Assembly (NCBI GenBank): GCA_027620495.1
Contig: JAQCEA010000002.1
Span: 124,001-188,000, forward strand
Reading direction: 5' to 3'
Source: Pseudomonadota bacterium
GTDB taxonomy: Bacteria > Pseudomonadota > Alphaproteobacteria > Puniceispirillales > Puniceispirillaceae
Length of the DNA stretch: 64,000 nt
Numbering within the stretch: the stretch's first letter is position 1; each line of letters starts with the position of its first letter. The notes beneath the pieces were generated by a model. It did not search any database. It had not been told where the DNA came from and worked only from the letters and a program-made list of their open reading frames with translations. Below, piece by piece: positions 3,898 to 9,212 of this stretch. A program made the translations under genes and the position numbers.

Positions 3898-4491
3898 TTA
3901 CGGTCGTGTGCGTTTGGCAGTTTGGCCCGGACCAGTCACATGCTTTACAGCATTGATTAGATAACCAGATCCTGTTTGCACGGTTAATATGGCGGCCAGC
4001 CACAACAATGTGATGCCAATTTCATGGGCAAAGGGAAAGCCGGGAAAGCCGGGCGCGCCCATTAAAAACCCAAGGGACAGAATTTGTGCCGTGGTTTTCC
4101 ATTTTGCCAGACGTGTTACTGGGGCGGACACATTTTGTTTGGCTAAAAATTCGCGCAGACCGGAAATCATGAATTCACGGATCAGGATGATCAGCGCGGG
4201 AACCAAAAATACCCAGCCGCTTGTGGTGACGCTGGCAAGGGCAAGCAAAACGGCGGCCACAAGAAGTTTGTCGGCAATCGGGTCGAGCATCTCGCCAAGC
4301 GGCGATACCACTTTCAGCCGGCGCGCCATATATCCATCAACATAATCGGTCACGCTGGCAATGGTGTAGAGGCCCAAGGCCAGCTGATAGCCATAGGCCG
4401 GTTCATCAATCCATATCAAAACGGCGATCAACGGCGTGATCGCAATACGCATGATTGTCATCCAATTAGGCAGGGCATTCAGCGTAAACAT
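3898..4491 (-). CDS. pgsA: CDP-diacylglycerol--glycerol-3-phosphate 3-phosphatidyltransferase
   Basis: Integral inner-membrane enzyme (197 residues) that joins CDP-diacylglycerol and glycerol-3-phosphate, the committed step to phosphatidylglycerol and cardiolipin. The CDP-alcohol phosphotransferase signature D-x2-DG-x2-AR-x8-G-x3-D-x3-D lies at about residues 49-74 (DYVDGYMARR, then GEMLDPIADK). Several hydrophobic helices flank it. It sits between uvrC and moaD on the same strand, as in many alphaproteobacteria. Confidence 0.93.
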   Translation of the reverse strand: MFTLNALPNWMTIMRIAITPLIAVLIWIDEPAYGYQLALGLYTIASVTDYVDGYMARRLKVVSPLGEMLDPIADKLLVAAVLLALASVTTSGWVFLVPALIILIREFMISGLREFLAKQNVSAPVTRLAKWKTTAQILSLGFLMGAPGFPGFPFAHEIGITLLWLAAILTVQTGSGYLINAVKHVTGPGQTAKRTRP

Positions 4492-4571: not shown

Positions 4572-6452
4572 CTATTGTCCGCCACTATAGAACCAATCAT
4601 AAATTTGTTGTGCAAATTTTTTTGAAATACCGTCAACTGCTTGCAAATCTGTCAAGCCAGCTGCGGCAACAGCCCGCGCCGAGCCAAAATGCGCCAATAG
4701 TGCTTTTTTGCGTTTCGGGCCAATGCCGGGCACGGCATCAAGCGGGTTGGTAAATTCGGCCTTTGCGCGCTTGTTGCGATGGGTGCCAATCGCATAGCGA
4801 TGCGCTTCATCACGTAGTCGTTGCAAGAAATGCATAGCGGCGCTATCAGGCGGCAGGGTAAAGCTGGGGCGGCCACGTATGTGAAATTGTTCCCGCCCGG
4901 CATGGCGGTCCGGACCCTTGGATATGGCGACAACTTGAAGATCGGGCACCGAAAGTTCGTCAAGAACGTCATGCACTGATGATAACTGGCCAAGTCCCCC
5001 ATCAATCAATAATAAATCCGGCCAATTGCCAGATATCCGGTCGGGGTCTTCTTTTAAGGCGCGTGAAAACCGCCGGTGCATCACTTGCCGCATCATGGCA
5101 AAATCATCACCTTTTTGGGTGGCAAATTTTCCTTCATCTTTGATGTTGAAACGCCGGTAGGCGGCCTTTTGAAATCCTTCTGGCCCGGCCACCACCATGC
5201 CCCCTACCGCATGTTTGCCCTGAATATGTGAATTGTCATAGATTTCTATTCGTTCTGGCGGGTGCGGCAATCCAAGTGCCGCGGCGAGTTCACCAAGCAG
5301 ACGCTTTTGTGATGAGGCATTTGCAAGATGGCGGGCCAATGCCTCTTCCGCATTTTTAACCGCCATCGCGGTCACTTTGCGGCGGGCGCCGCGTTCCGGG
5401 CATTGCAACCGCAAACGGCGACCAGCGGTGCGGGACAGGGCTTCGGTCAACAGGTCTGTATCTTGGGGCAAATCGCTGAGGAAAATATCGGCTGGTGGTT
5501 CTTTGTCTTCATAAAATTGACCAATAAAGGCACTGATAATTTCATCGGCTGGGGTGTCGGCAAGATGTGTCAAAAAATATGATCGATTGCCATAGTTTGA
5601 TCCGCCGCGAATGAAAAAGATTTGAATACAACTGCGCTCGCCGCTACGGGCAATGGCGATGATATCGGCATCTAGGACATTTGGAATGTTAATGTCCTGA
5701 TTGGCCTGAATGCCAGTGAGTGCGCGAATACGGTTACGCCAGATGGCGGCTGTTTCAAAATCTAAAATATCAGCCGCCGCGTGCATGCGTTGTGCATATT
5801 CCCGCTGAATATCAGCTGAATCACCGTTTAAAAACCGCCGTGCCTGTGACATTTGCTTGGCATAGTCAGCTTGGCTAACAAGCCCGACACAGGGGCCAGA
5901 ACAACGTTTAATCTGATATTGCAGGCACGGGCGGGTACGGCTGCTGAAAATCGAGTCTGAACAGGTGCGTAACATAAACGCACGGGCCAGATCAGTGACT
6001 GTTCGATTTACCGACCCAGCCGATGCAAATGGCCCAAAATAATCACCTTTGCGGGTTTTGCGGCCCCGATGTTTGGTTAACTGGCCAAATGCATGATCAG
6101 CGGTGAGTAAAATTTGTGGCAAGCTTTTGTCGTCACGAAGCAAAATATTATAGCGCGGTTGCATTTTCTTAATCAGATTGGATTCGAGCAACAACGCTTC
6201 GATTTCAGATTTGGTGACGATCACCTCGAGCTTTTCTGTCTCGCTGACCATACGCAAAATTCGATTCGATAGGCGGTTGGGTTGTGTGTAATTGGTAACG
6301 CGCCGGACCAGATTGCGCGCTTTGCCAACATATAAAACAGCGCCCTTGTCATTCAGCATCCGGTAAACGCCGGGCTGATTAGGCAGGGTTTTTAATTCAT
6401 TTTTCAGATACGCAATGCCGCGTTCCAAATTTGGGGGCAAGTTTTGTGACAT
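4572..6452 (-). CDS. uvrC: excinuclease ABC subunit C
   Basis: Nucleotide-excision-repair endonuclease of 626 residues that cuts on both sides of a lesion in the UvrB-DNA complex. Domains in order are the GIY-YIG nuclease (GVYRMLNDKG and LYVGKARN near residues 28-48), a Cys-rich stretch (CLQYQIKRCSGPC), a UVR UvrB-binding motif, the RNase-H-like 3'-side nuclease domain (IEIYDNSHIQG, LLIDGGLGQL) and C-terminal helix-hairpin-helices (AVPGIGPKRKKALL). It is full length. It heads the uvrC-pgsA-moaD run, with a long AT-rich gap upstream. Confidence 0.97.
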   Translation of the reverse strand: MSQNLPPNLERGIAYLKNELKTLPNQPGVYRMLNDKGAVLYVGKARNLVRRVTNYTQPNRLSNRILRMVSETEKLEVIVTKSEIEALLLESNLIKKMQPRYNILLRDDKSLPQILLTADHAFGQLTKHRGRKTRKGDYFGPFASAGSVNRTVTDLARAFMLRTCSDSIFSSRTRPCLQYQIKRCSGPCVGLVSQADYAKQMSQARRFLNGDSADIQREYAQRMHAAADILDFETAAIWRNRIRALTGIQANQDINIPNVLDADIIAIARSGERSCIQIFFIRGGSNYGNRSYFLTHLADTPADEIISAFIGQFYEDKEPPADIFLSDLPQDTDLLTEALSRTAGRRLRLQCPERGARRKVTAMAVKNAEEALARHLANASSQKRLLGELAAALGLPHPPERIEIYDNSHIQGKHAVGGMVVAGPEGFQKAAYRRFNIKDEGKFATQKGDDFAMMRQVMHRRFSRALKEDPDRISGNWPDLLLIDGGLGQLSSVHDVLDELSVPDLQVVAISKGPDRHAGREQFHIRGRPSFTLPPDSAAMHFLQRLRDEAHRYAIGTHRNKRAKAEFTNPLDAVPGIGPKRKKALLAHFGSARAVAAAGLTDLQAVDGISKKFAQQIYDWFYSGGQ

Positions 6453-6622
6453 GTGATCCTGTCTGGCCTTTATGCTGCCAACATAATCTATGCCTATTGT
6501 GCCAAAATGTCATGAGACAAGCTGTCAATAGGGATGAGGAAACAAAGGTGACGGAAACCATTTATCCATTTTTTAAGGCACATTGACGTTGGGATATAAC
6601 CCTAGGGAAATCATTTGTGAAC

Positions 6623-6674
6623 ATCGCTTTTAAATATTGCTTTTAAACATTGCTTTTAAACATTGCTTTTTCAT
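6623..6674. repeat. four tandem copies of a 13-bp AT-rich unit
   Basis: The unit ATTGCTTTTAAAC occurs perfectly at 6636-6648 and 6649-6661. Degenerate copies lie on both sides at 6623-6635 and 6662-6674. The 13-bp period, AT richness and closeness to DnaA-box-like sites recall the unwinding-element 13-mers of replication origins, though the sequence is not the E. coli one. Simple replication slippage would also explain it. Confidence 0.8.
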
Positions 6675-6764
6675 ATTGCCGGGGGTTTTGGTACGCTTTT
6701 GGTGTTTGGCGAATCAAACCCACGATTCGGGGTGAAATTGAGCGAAAAATTTGTCCCCGAAGCC

Positions 6765-6785
6765 TGTGGATAAATTTGTGGACAA
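6765..6785 (-). promoter_or_regulatory. pair of DnaA-box-like sites
   Basis: On the minus strand 6765-6773 reads TTATCCACA, the perfect DnaA-box consensus, and 6777-6785 reads TTGTCCACA, one mismatch from it. Both have the same orientation and are offset by 12 bp. The match is seen directly; DnaA binding is inferred. Confidence 0.6.
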
Positions 6786-6835
6786 TCTTAAAAAAAATAG
6801 CATGCCCTACTGATTTCCAACGATAAATATCAGTT

Positions 6836-6852
6836 TGCCTAAAAAATAGGCA
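6836..6852. repeat. inverted repeat TGCCTA-N5-TAGGCA
   Basis: Perfect 6-bp arms are separated by five adenines within the AT-rich part of the uvrC-uvrB gap. A related inverted repeat (GCCTA-AAA-TAGGC core) occurs between pal and cpoB at 59872-59886. It could be an operator for a dimeric regulator or a small hairpin. Confidence 0.45.
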
Positions 6853-7064
6853 TAAATATAAAAACAAATAAAAACAATGAGTTGTTTTAATTCAAGATCA
6901 AAAATTTAGAAAAATGACAAGTTTATTGAAATTGATAAGTCAAATTCTGTGATTTTTGCTCTCTTGTGCAAAACCAGCACCGATTCGCCAGTTTATACCG
7001 TGGTTTGGGACGGGGGCGCGGCATGGCCAAAAGGCCATGATTTTCATCACAAAATGCGGTGTAT

Positions 7065-9212
7065 TTAACGGCGGCGGCGCTTTTTCACCGGCGCACCGGG
7101 GGTGCCAGCTGGGAATTGTCCGTAACGATTGGCAAGTGATGAGGGCACCCCGGGGGCGGTAAGGCCAAGTTCGGCAGCTTCCATCCGGCGGATTTCATCG
7201 CGCAATCTTGCCGCTTCTTCAAATTCAAGATTGGCCGCGGCCTCTTTCATATTGGCTTCAAGGTCGCTGATCACTTTTTGGAAATTATTCCCCACCAAAT
7301 CACCCGCTTTGGCACCAGCCACAGGGGTCAGATGGTCGCCGCGTTCATAGACAGTCTCCAACACATCGGCAATATCTTTGCGGACTGATTCGGGGGTGAT
7401 GCCGTGTTGTTCGTTATATGCCTGCTGACGGGCGCGGCGACGGTTGGTTTCGTCAAGGGCATATTGCATCGAGTCGGTGACACGGTCTCCATAGAGGATC
7501 ACCCGGCCATCAATATTGCGCGCGGCCCGGCCAATGGTCTGAACCAGCGATGTTTTTGACCGTAAAAACCCTTCCTTATCAGCGTCAAGAATGCCAACCA
7601 ACGCACATTCTGGAATATCCAACCCTTCGCGAAGCAGGTTAATACCGATCAAGACGTCAAATACGCCAAGTCGCAAATCACGCATAATTTCAATACGTTC
7701 CAGCGTATCGATATCAGAATGCAAATAGCGTACTTTTAAGCCAGCTTCATACATATACTCGCTCAAGGCTTCGGCCATTTTTTTGGTCAAGGTTGTAATC
7801 AGAGCGCGCTGGCCCTTGGCGGCGACCTCGCGGCATTCGGCAATAATATCGTCAACCTGACTGATGGTGGGGCGCACAATACATTCCGGATCAATCAACC
7901 CGGTTGGGCGTACCACCTGTTCGCTGAATACCCCGCCAGTGCGTTGCATTTCCCACGGGCCGGGGGTGGCTGATACATAAATTGTCTGCGGCCGAAACCC
8001 CTCCCATTCTTCAAATTTTAGCGGCCGGTTATCAAGACAAGACGGCAACCGGAACCCATGTTCAGACAAGGTGGATTTACGCGCAAAATCGCCTTTATAC
8101 ATGGCACCTAATTGCGGCACTGTGACATGGCTTTCGTCGATAATTAACAGCGCATTGTCTGGCAAATATTCAAATAAGGTGGGCGGTGGTTCGCCGGGGC
8201 CGCGCCCCGACAAATAGCGGGAATAGTTCTCGATACCCGCACACACACCGGTGGCCTCGATCATTTCTACATCAAACTGGGTGCGTTGTTCGATACGTTG
8301 TGCCTCGAGCAATTTTTGCGCCGCGGTAAATTCTGCAATACGTGTTTTGAGTTCCTGTTTAATTTGTTTGCAGGCTTGCTGCAACGTGGGGCGCGGGGTG
8401 ACGTAATGCGAATTTGCGAAAATTGTGATGCTGTCCAGCGTTGCGGTTTTTGAACCAGTCAACGGATCAAATTCGAAAATGGCCTCTATCTCATCGCCAA
8501 AAAGCGAAATTCGCCACGCTCGGTCTTCAAGGTGGGCTGGAAAGATTTCAACCGAGTCACCGCGCACCCGAAACGCACCGCGGACAAAATTTGTATCGTT
8601 GCGGCGATATTGAAGTTCGGTAAATGTCCGCAATAAGTCTTGACGCGGTGCGGTGTCACCAGCGGTTAGTTTCTGCGTCATGGTCGAATAGGTTTCAACC
8701 GAACCAATGCCGTAAATACATGATACCGAGGCGACAATAATCACATCATCGCGTTCAAGCAGGGCGCGGGTGGCGGCATGGCGCATGCGATCGATCTGTT
8801 CATTGACCGATGATTCTTTTTCAATATAGGTGTCCGAACGCGGGACATAGGCTTCGGGCTGATAATAATCATAATAAGATACGAAATATTCAACAGCATT
8901 GTTTGGAAATAACGACCGCATCTCGCCATAAAGCTGGGCCGCCAATGTTTTGTTCGGGGCGAGAATCAAGGTTGGGCGTTGTGCCGCTTGGATCACATGC
9001 GCCGCGGTAAAGGTTTTGCCGGACCCGGTGACCCCTAAAAGCACCTGATCGCGCTCACCCTGTTTGATGCCGTCAATCAATTCTTTGATGGCGGTTGGTT
9101 GATCACCTGCCGGGGCAAATTCTGATTGTAAATCAAAATTGGCTGGGCCGCGTGGACGGCTGATGATCAGATTATCGGCTGCTTGTGTATCCATGCGGTA
9201 CAAGATAGGCAT
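7065..9212 (-). CDS. uvrB: excinuclease ABC subunit B
   Basis: Damage-verifying helicase-like subunit of nucleotide excision repair, 715 residues. Visible elements are Walker A (GVTGSGKT, residues 60-67), the beta-hairpin region [12 protein letters not shown] used for strand insertion, the DEAD-like [10 protein letters not shown], the helicase C domain ([26 protein letters not shown]) and a C-terminal UVR motif that binds UvrC (about 635-670). The C-terminus is basic (KKRRRR). A start at the internal Met7 is also possible. It is on the same strand as uvrC but 612 bp away. Confidence 0.97.

Follow-up and report, generated by a model that had tools for sequence, protein, structure and literature searches.

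What is held in the 612-bp gap between uvrB and uvrC, two genes that both lie on the minus strand? We addressed this question in a 64-kb stretch of DNA (hereafter the window; C38:124001-188000 of its genome, G000) from a genome most closely related, among named records, to Candidatus Puniceispirillum and others of SAR116. A sequence-only reading of this stretch had noted two DnaA boxes in the same orientation, 12 bp apart, followed by roughly 170 bp of very AT-rich DNA, and had compared the set to a bacterial origin or a DnaA-controlled promoter. We found that the gap carries a three-box architecture accompanied by a Fis-type palindrome at a fixed distance, and that the arrangement is conserved upstream of uvrC. 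Escherichia coli recharges ADP-DnaA at two sites, DARS1 and DARS2, and we consider it likely that the gap holds an alphaproteobacterial element of the DARS type that would likewise recharge ADP-DnaA.

DnaA boxes in the uvrB-uvrC gap

Both parts of the earlier description held: the two boxes (one perfect, one with a single mismatch) lie 12 bp apart from start to start, and the DNA beyond them is the most AT-rich of the whole 64 kb, as none of the 6,383 scanned 170-bp segments exceeded its AT content (Table 1). A third, degenerate box in the opposed orientation had been overlooked, as had the palindrome at 6836-6852.

Table 1. Features of the uvrB-uvrC locus (positions within the window).
Feature	Position	Strand	Basis and remarks
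uvrC	4572..6452	-	ORF list and NCBIfam name; gene linked to the element in most element-bearing Alphaproteobacteria
uvrB-uvrC intergenic gap	6453..7064	no strand	ORF list and NCBIfam names of both flanks; contains the element
DnaA box I, TTGTCCCCG	6751..6759	+	Head-to-head with box II; degenerate, 3 mismatches to TTATNCACA
Spacer between boxes I and II, 5 bp	6760..6764	no strand	DARS spacing; peak of the free-spacer search (77/129 places)
DnaA box II, TTATCCACA	6765..6773	-	Perfect, 0 mismatches to the DnaA consensus
Spacer between boxes II and III, 3 bp	6774..6776	no strand	DARS spacing
DnaA box III, TTGTCCACA	6777..6785	-	One mismatch to the DnaA consensus
AT-rich stretch	6786..6955	no strand	76.5% AT; covers the Fis-type and IHF-like sites
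Fis-type 15-mer, GCCTAAAAAATAGGC	6837..6851	no strand	Inside palindrome TGCCTA-N5-TAGGCA (6836-6852); centre 93 bp from first base of box I; exact fit to GnnYAnnnnnTRnnC
IHF-like motif, AAACAATGAGTTG	6872..6884	+	One mismatch to WATCAANNNNTTR; weak evidence
uvrB	7065..9212	-	ORF list and NCBIfam name; adjoins the element in this genus and part of the relatives only

Together the three boxes form a 35-bp core (6751-6785) with the layout 9-5-9-3-9, in which box I is opposed to the tandem boxes II and III. The same layout was found in E. coli MG1655 in the bioD-uvrB gap, a site that we take to be DARS1 (its layout fits a review), and in the stretch beside mutH, where the site between rppH and mutH (core at L118 636-670) is presumably DARS2, a location that also fits the review. 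Orientation and the 5- and 3-bp spacing are identical between the core in the window and both E. coli cores. Passages of PMC5742627 describe the DARS1 and DARS2 cores as having the same spacing, with box I opposed to boxes II and III, and the head-to-head arrangement is presented as characteristic and functionally essential in passages of PMC5742627 and PMC10380432. What goes beyond chance here is the arrangement of the boxes and not their number: the whole window holds 39 DnaA-box matches with at most one mismatch, while 49.6 would be expected.

To look at the spacing independently of the complete pattern, we searched 289 genomes for TATCCMC and TGTGGATAA separated by anything from 0 to 20 bases. 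The matches listed comprised 150 places, with two in the reversed control, and 129 places once self-complementary duplicates had been collapsed. The spacer distribution peaked at exactly 5 bp, and 77 of the 129 places had the DARS spacing; the next commonest spacing accounted for 9. The last base of box I was G, C or T in 70 of the 77 DARS-spaced places (the E. coli cores have T and C), and A was the commonest last base at the other spacings (27 of 52).

Box I varies in its closeness to TTATNCACA, with one to four mismatches in 30 SAR116 elements and one in each E. coli core. Outside SAR116, alphaproteobacterial elements mostly have two (at least two in 51 of 59 distinct elements). The degeneracy of this predicted box is the weak part of the DARS reading and counts against it. 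All 30 aligned SAR116 elements share one fixed layout, with box I running opposite to boxes II and III. This bears on the idea that the gap is a datA-like site, i.e., a sink for DnaA or a place of ATP hydrolysis (DDAH), which DnaA boxes with an IHF-type motif nearby would fit; given that the essential boxes of datA all point in one direction according to a passage of PMC5742627, we regard such a site as very improbable.

Two matches to RNA families in the gap fell far under the gathering scores of those families, and no plasmid relatives of the gap sequence were found. Between the element and uvrC, at 6620-6670, lie tandem 13-bp repeats (AACATTGCTTTTA, 3.9 copies), which we treated as local because a scan of 31 relatives did not find the 11-base core of the repeat.

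Position relative to the replication origin

If the gap were a chromosomal or secondary origin of replication, the way its DnaA boxes lead into the window's most AT-rich 170 bp would be in keeping with that role, and DnaA boxes beside AT-rich DNA are indeed what it shares with the alphaproteobacterial oriC of the hemE/PPPase type. We followed the two checks that had been proposed, cumulative GC skew over a full chromosome and the density of DnaA boxes, in a complete congener (G003; 2,592,803 bp), with skew taken from forty 20-kb stretches. With one exception in each group, the stretches sampled between 0.26 and 1.5 Mb had negative skew and the remaining ones positive skew. Cumulative skew reached its minimum in the stretch from 1.48 to 1.50 Mb (at about 1.49 Mb), with the element at 0.730 Mb. 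At the minimum, parB is found at 1.482 Mb, and the genes mnmG, rho, hemJ and hemE lead to an intergenic stretch with five boxes (at most one mismatch each), across which the 1-kb skew changes sign and on whose far side lies a kinase-PPPase gene. The typical origin neighbourhood (hemE or parAB/gidA), already remarked upon as absent from the window, and a cluster of more than three boxes occur elsewhere in the genome under study.

The genome under study gave the same picture. On another contig, C37, hemE and the PPPase gene flank a cluster of five boxes that spans about 140 bp, and the skew has a local minimum there. Cumulative skew, followed over C38:104001-188000, increases across the gap. The gap lacks the neighbours, the box number (a cluster of more than three; it has only three) and the skew change of an alphaproteobacterial oriC, and a site of that type sits on C37. 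We rejected the gap as the main origin on the strength of skew and the location of oriC at hemE/PPPase, and an origin of any kind at this place is, in our view, extremely improbable. As for the five-box stretch itself, C37:48068-48210 (L209 12068-12210) is the probable chromosomal origin of this genome.

We also placed the element on the replichore, with hemE as the origin marker, in the 12 near-complete genomes of a set of 16 (four genomes in pieces were left out). It was located at 0.04-0.90 of the replichore, with a mean of 0.41 and 10 of the 12 within 0.15-0.70, a distribution that is not clearly non-random (KS p 0.09). With the E. coli oriC where we take it to be, DARS1 and DARS2 would lie at 0.66 and 0.41, respectively. 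These positions are compatible with a DARS, though not decisive.

A separate pair of perfect DnaA boxes in tandem was also seen, 66 bp apart in G000 (L211 9922-9996, on contig C34) and 67 bp apart in G003 (L096 10290-10365, i.e., 2,200,290-2,200,365), G008 and G010. The ORFs on its two sides in G003 matched no family, and a fliL-like gene is nearby; the pair is possibly another DnaA-controlled site.

Conservation, linkage to uvrC and accessory sites

The sequence-only reading had named a gap not conserved in close relatives as grounds for refuting it. The 35-bp triple of boxes recurs at the same place: in aligned upstream regions the element was present at the uvrC loci of 29 of 31 relatives with upstream DNA, in addition to the window (L046, L061 and L064, which have no upstream DNA, were left out). 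It was absent from L060 and L062, whose UvrC proteins are 53% and 40% relatives. A search with the 35-base pattern, allowing up to two mismatches, found it in 147 of 385 alphaproteobacterial genomes and never in the reversed control; no match within two mismatches was found in the other 238, which speaks against the DARS reading. In a sample of the phylum the pattern occurred in 183 of 299 genomes, and, as a positive control, some of the matches listed there are nearly identical to the cores of E. coli DARS1 and DARS2. Some non-alphaproteobacterial genomes hold up to nine matches, so the pattern alone is no proof of DARS function. We regard the element as ancient; it occurs in many Alphaproteobacteria. 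The part of the earlier reading that saw sites for DnaA in the gap is strongly supported by this deep conservation, which argues for binding by DnaA.

The element has a usual address. Linkage was checked in part of the matched genomes listed (30 judged from loci, and 80 others). In 62 of the 80 the element lies 52-500 bp upstream of uvrC (measured to the start of the family match) and in the orientation seen in the window; in the other 18 it is elsewhere or uvrC was not found. One match on the opposite strand near uvrC, in G073, overlaps a match in the usual orientation. Among the loci listed, uvrC adjoins the element in 20 of 30 loci of the class, and in all 13 of a further alphaproteobacterial set (L149-L161, window included) the element is at uvrC. 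Neither uvrB nor uvrC was found near the core in any of the 16 loci from other classes (L162-L177), within the 1.5 kb examined.

We then reversed the comparison by taking uvrC loci regardless of the element (the best-scoring 30 among 44 genomes with uvrC) and scanning them with a matrix built solely from 29 SAR116 loci, at a cut-off of 15 that had been set after an earlier scan of these loci. Upstream of uvrC, 21 of the 30 loci scored at least 15, always in the same orientation (the window is one of the 21), and no score of at least 15 was obtained elsewhere in the same 30 loci. Nine loci were under the cut-off, a result that counts against the DARS reading. One locus below it, L201 (score 10.8), has the palindrome at the expected place, making a 22nd case. 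The link is to uvrC and not to uvrB, because five loci (L053, L054, L056, L057 and L059) keep the element where no uvrB was found within 4 kb upstream; a link to uvrB was rejected on the same grounds.

The second conserved component is a palindrome of the type TTGCCTA-N5-TAGGCA, whose centre is in most cases 93 bp away from the base at which box I starts and whose arms change symmetrically among elements (symmetry was scored with centres at 90-95). It contains a 15-mer that fits the Fis consensus, GnnYAnnnnnTRnnC as given in a passage of PMC4245941. An exact 15-mer of this kind, centred at +91 to +94, was found in 69 of 89 distinct alphaproteobacterial elements (duplicates from genomes G111, G088 and G103 collapsed), while 39 further four-base windows, placed between +40 and +199, gave 0 or 1 of the 89 each. 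In the loci from other classes it stands at that place in 2 of 16, and both E. coli cores lack it. Evidence for an IHF site is weak in SAR116. Outside SAR116, 15 of 59 distinct elements carry an exact reverse-strand IHF motif at +107 to +110, with only 2 further exact matches between -200 and +260.

These results allowed us to weigh the other half of the sequence-only reading, in which the boxes would be an operator or promoter of uvrC, with bound DnaA activating or repressing the gene and so tying excision repair to the replication cycle. The fixed orientation of the element 52-500 bp upstream of uvrC in most matched genomes is what such a site would predict. However, the distance to uvrC varies about tenfold while the inner spacing and the distance to the palindrome stay fixed, and some copies of the element are found away from uvrC. 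The cleanest case is G098, in which the element lies on contig C38 (L148), near an infC-like gene named by eye, and uvrC lies on contig C61 (L190) without an element. In addition, 6 of the 10 copies without uvrC found beside them keep the Fis-type 15-mer at the right place (L119, L128, L129, L132, L147 and L148), although L132 extends for only 466 bases in the direction in which uvrC would be expected; by symmetry alone, the palindrome was detected in 6 of the 10 copies away from uvrC against 0-4 of 10 in control windows, a weak difference. Given the DARS spacing retained by the triple and the copies found away from uvrC, a promoter explains less than a DARS-type element does, and we consider it an unlikely account of the gap.

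At L146, a copy without an adjoining uvrC lies near a pgsA-like gene (also named by eye), and in the window a pgsA-like ORF (3898-4491) follows uvrC; at L146 the address may have outlived the gene.

Comparison with known DARS sites and a proposed recharging function

The element resembles each of the two E. coli sites in part. With DARS1 it shares the order of box I, 5 bp, box II, 3 bp and box III with box I opposed, a box I that is off consensus at its last base, and an adjoining excision-repair gene. It differs in how it is turned towards that gene: uvrC is faced by the box I end here, and uvrB by the box III end in E. coli. Box I is also more degenerate in the window, and the E. coli core has no Fis-type 15-mer at +91 to +94. 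With DARS2 it shares the core spacing. Beside the DARS2 core, passages of PMC4245941 describe IHF and Fis consensus sites, and we note an IHF-like motif with one mismatch at +109 there; the window has the Fis-type 15-mer and a one-mismatch IHF-like motif. The order of these accessory sites is reversed, i.e., palindrome and then IHF motif here, but IHF and then Fis in DARS2 (same passage of PMC4245941). The gene neighbours differ as well, and no Fis-sized frame was seen in eight genomes searched. The reversed order, the lack of a visible Fis-sized frame and the weak IHF motif of SAR116 count against the DARS reading. For Vibrio cholerae, also a gammaproteobacterium, a passage of PMC6090056 names uvrB and mutH as the places of DARS-like sequences, localised as in E. 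coli, and the likeness to these is by description only.

Passages in the literature describe the DARS2 core as conserved in gammaproteobacteria related to E. coli (PMC4245941), extend DARS conservation to betaproteobacteria (PMC5742627) and, citing earlier work, state that many proteobacterial species have conserved sequences like DARS1 and DARS2 (PMC10380432). None of these passages names a site in Alphaproteobacteria. Among the papers listed, judged by title and abstract opening, no published description of a DARS-type element in Alphaproteobacteria was found; the 2009 founding paper possibly mentions one. This founding paper (Fujimitsu et al. 2009) is presumably the earlier work cited in PMC10380432. 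The element may be an unrecognised DnaA-recharging site of the Alphaproteobacteria, to which Caulobacter, Sinorhizobium, Brucella and the marine SAR116 belong. Being widespread and usually placed upstream of uvrC, it would offer alphaproteobacterial models a specific locus.

From the analogy with E. coli we infer a function in DnaA recharging, for which the following steps can be proposed. ADP-DnaA molecules would bind boxes I and II head-to-head, with a further one at box III beside box II. The AAA+ domains of the bound molecules would meet and ADP would be released, with box III stabilising the complex; apo-DnaA would then leave and take up ATP, regenerating initiation-competent DnaA. Proteins at the palindrome and the IHF-like site would bend the DNA and time the activity of the element. 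Through the linkage to uvrC, bound DnaA may also influence transcription of that gene.

We compared five SAR116 DnaA proteins with that of E. coli (L070, read in the wrong frame, was left out). In favour of the DARS reading, the E. coli residues K178, R227, D230, D269, R281, R285, R334, R399 and H434 are identical in all five proteins. The same proteins have Met in place of L290, Ala in place of S268 and Tyr in place of L422. L290 is the AID-2 residue on which E. coli DnaA oligomers at DARS2 depend, and the change to Met counts against the DARS reading.

The occurrence of such elements in both classes suggests that DARS predates the split between alpha- and gammaproteobacteria. More tentatively, and with rather less confidence than in the DARS-type element itself, we propose that DARS is an ancestral proteobacterial device of which Alphaproteobacteria keep one beside uvrC, its Fis-type site being read by another protein. 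A search for HTH_8 in eight genomes found no match in an open frame shorter than 176 aa and hence no Fis-sized protein, although stop-to-stop frames could hide such a protein. Given that the Fis-type site is conserved and Fis apparently absent, an ancestral device would have to be read by some other protein, and a Fis-type site that is conserved where no Fis is visible offers a clear lead to a regulator of DnaA. One HTH_8 match in G003 is a response regulator of the ActR/PrrA/RegA type, with a solved relative (1umq). This protein may bind the palindrome and is only a candidate, put forward because its DNA-binding end matched the Fis-type HTH_8 and the congener encodes it. If it does read the palindrome, redox state would be coupled to DnaA recharging.

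Beyond the Alphaproteobacteria, a forward IHF-type motif was seen at +117 to +120 in 9 of 16 cores (five exact, four with one mismatch; L162, L163, L168, L169, L173, L174, L175, L176 and L177). Other exact IHF matches in these 16 loci were scattered, except for a reverse one at -30 in three loci. The fixed position of the forward motif in the nine copies suggests a DARS2-type layout there too.
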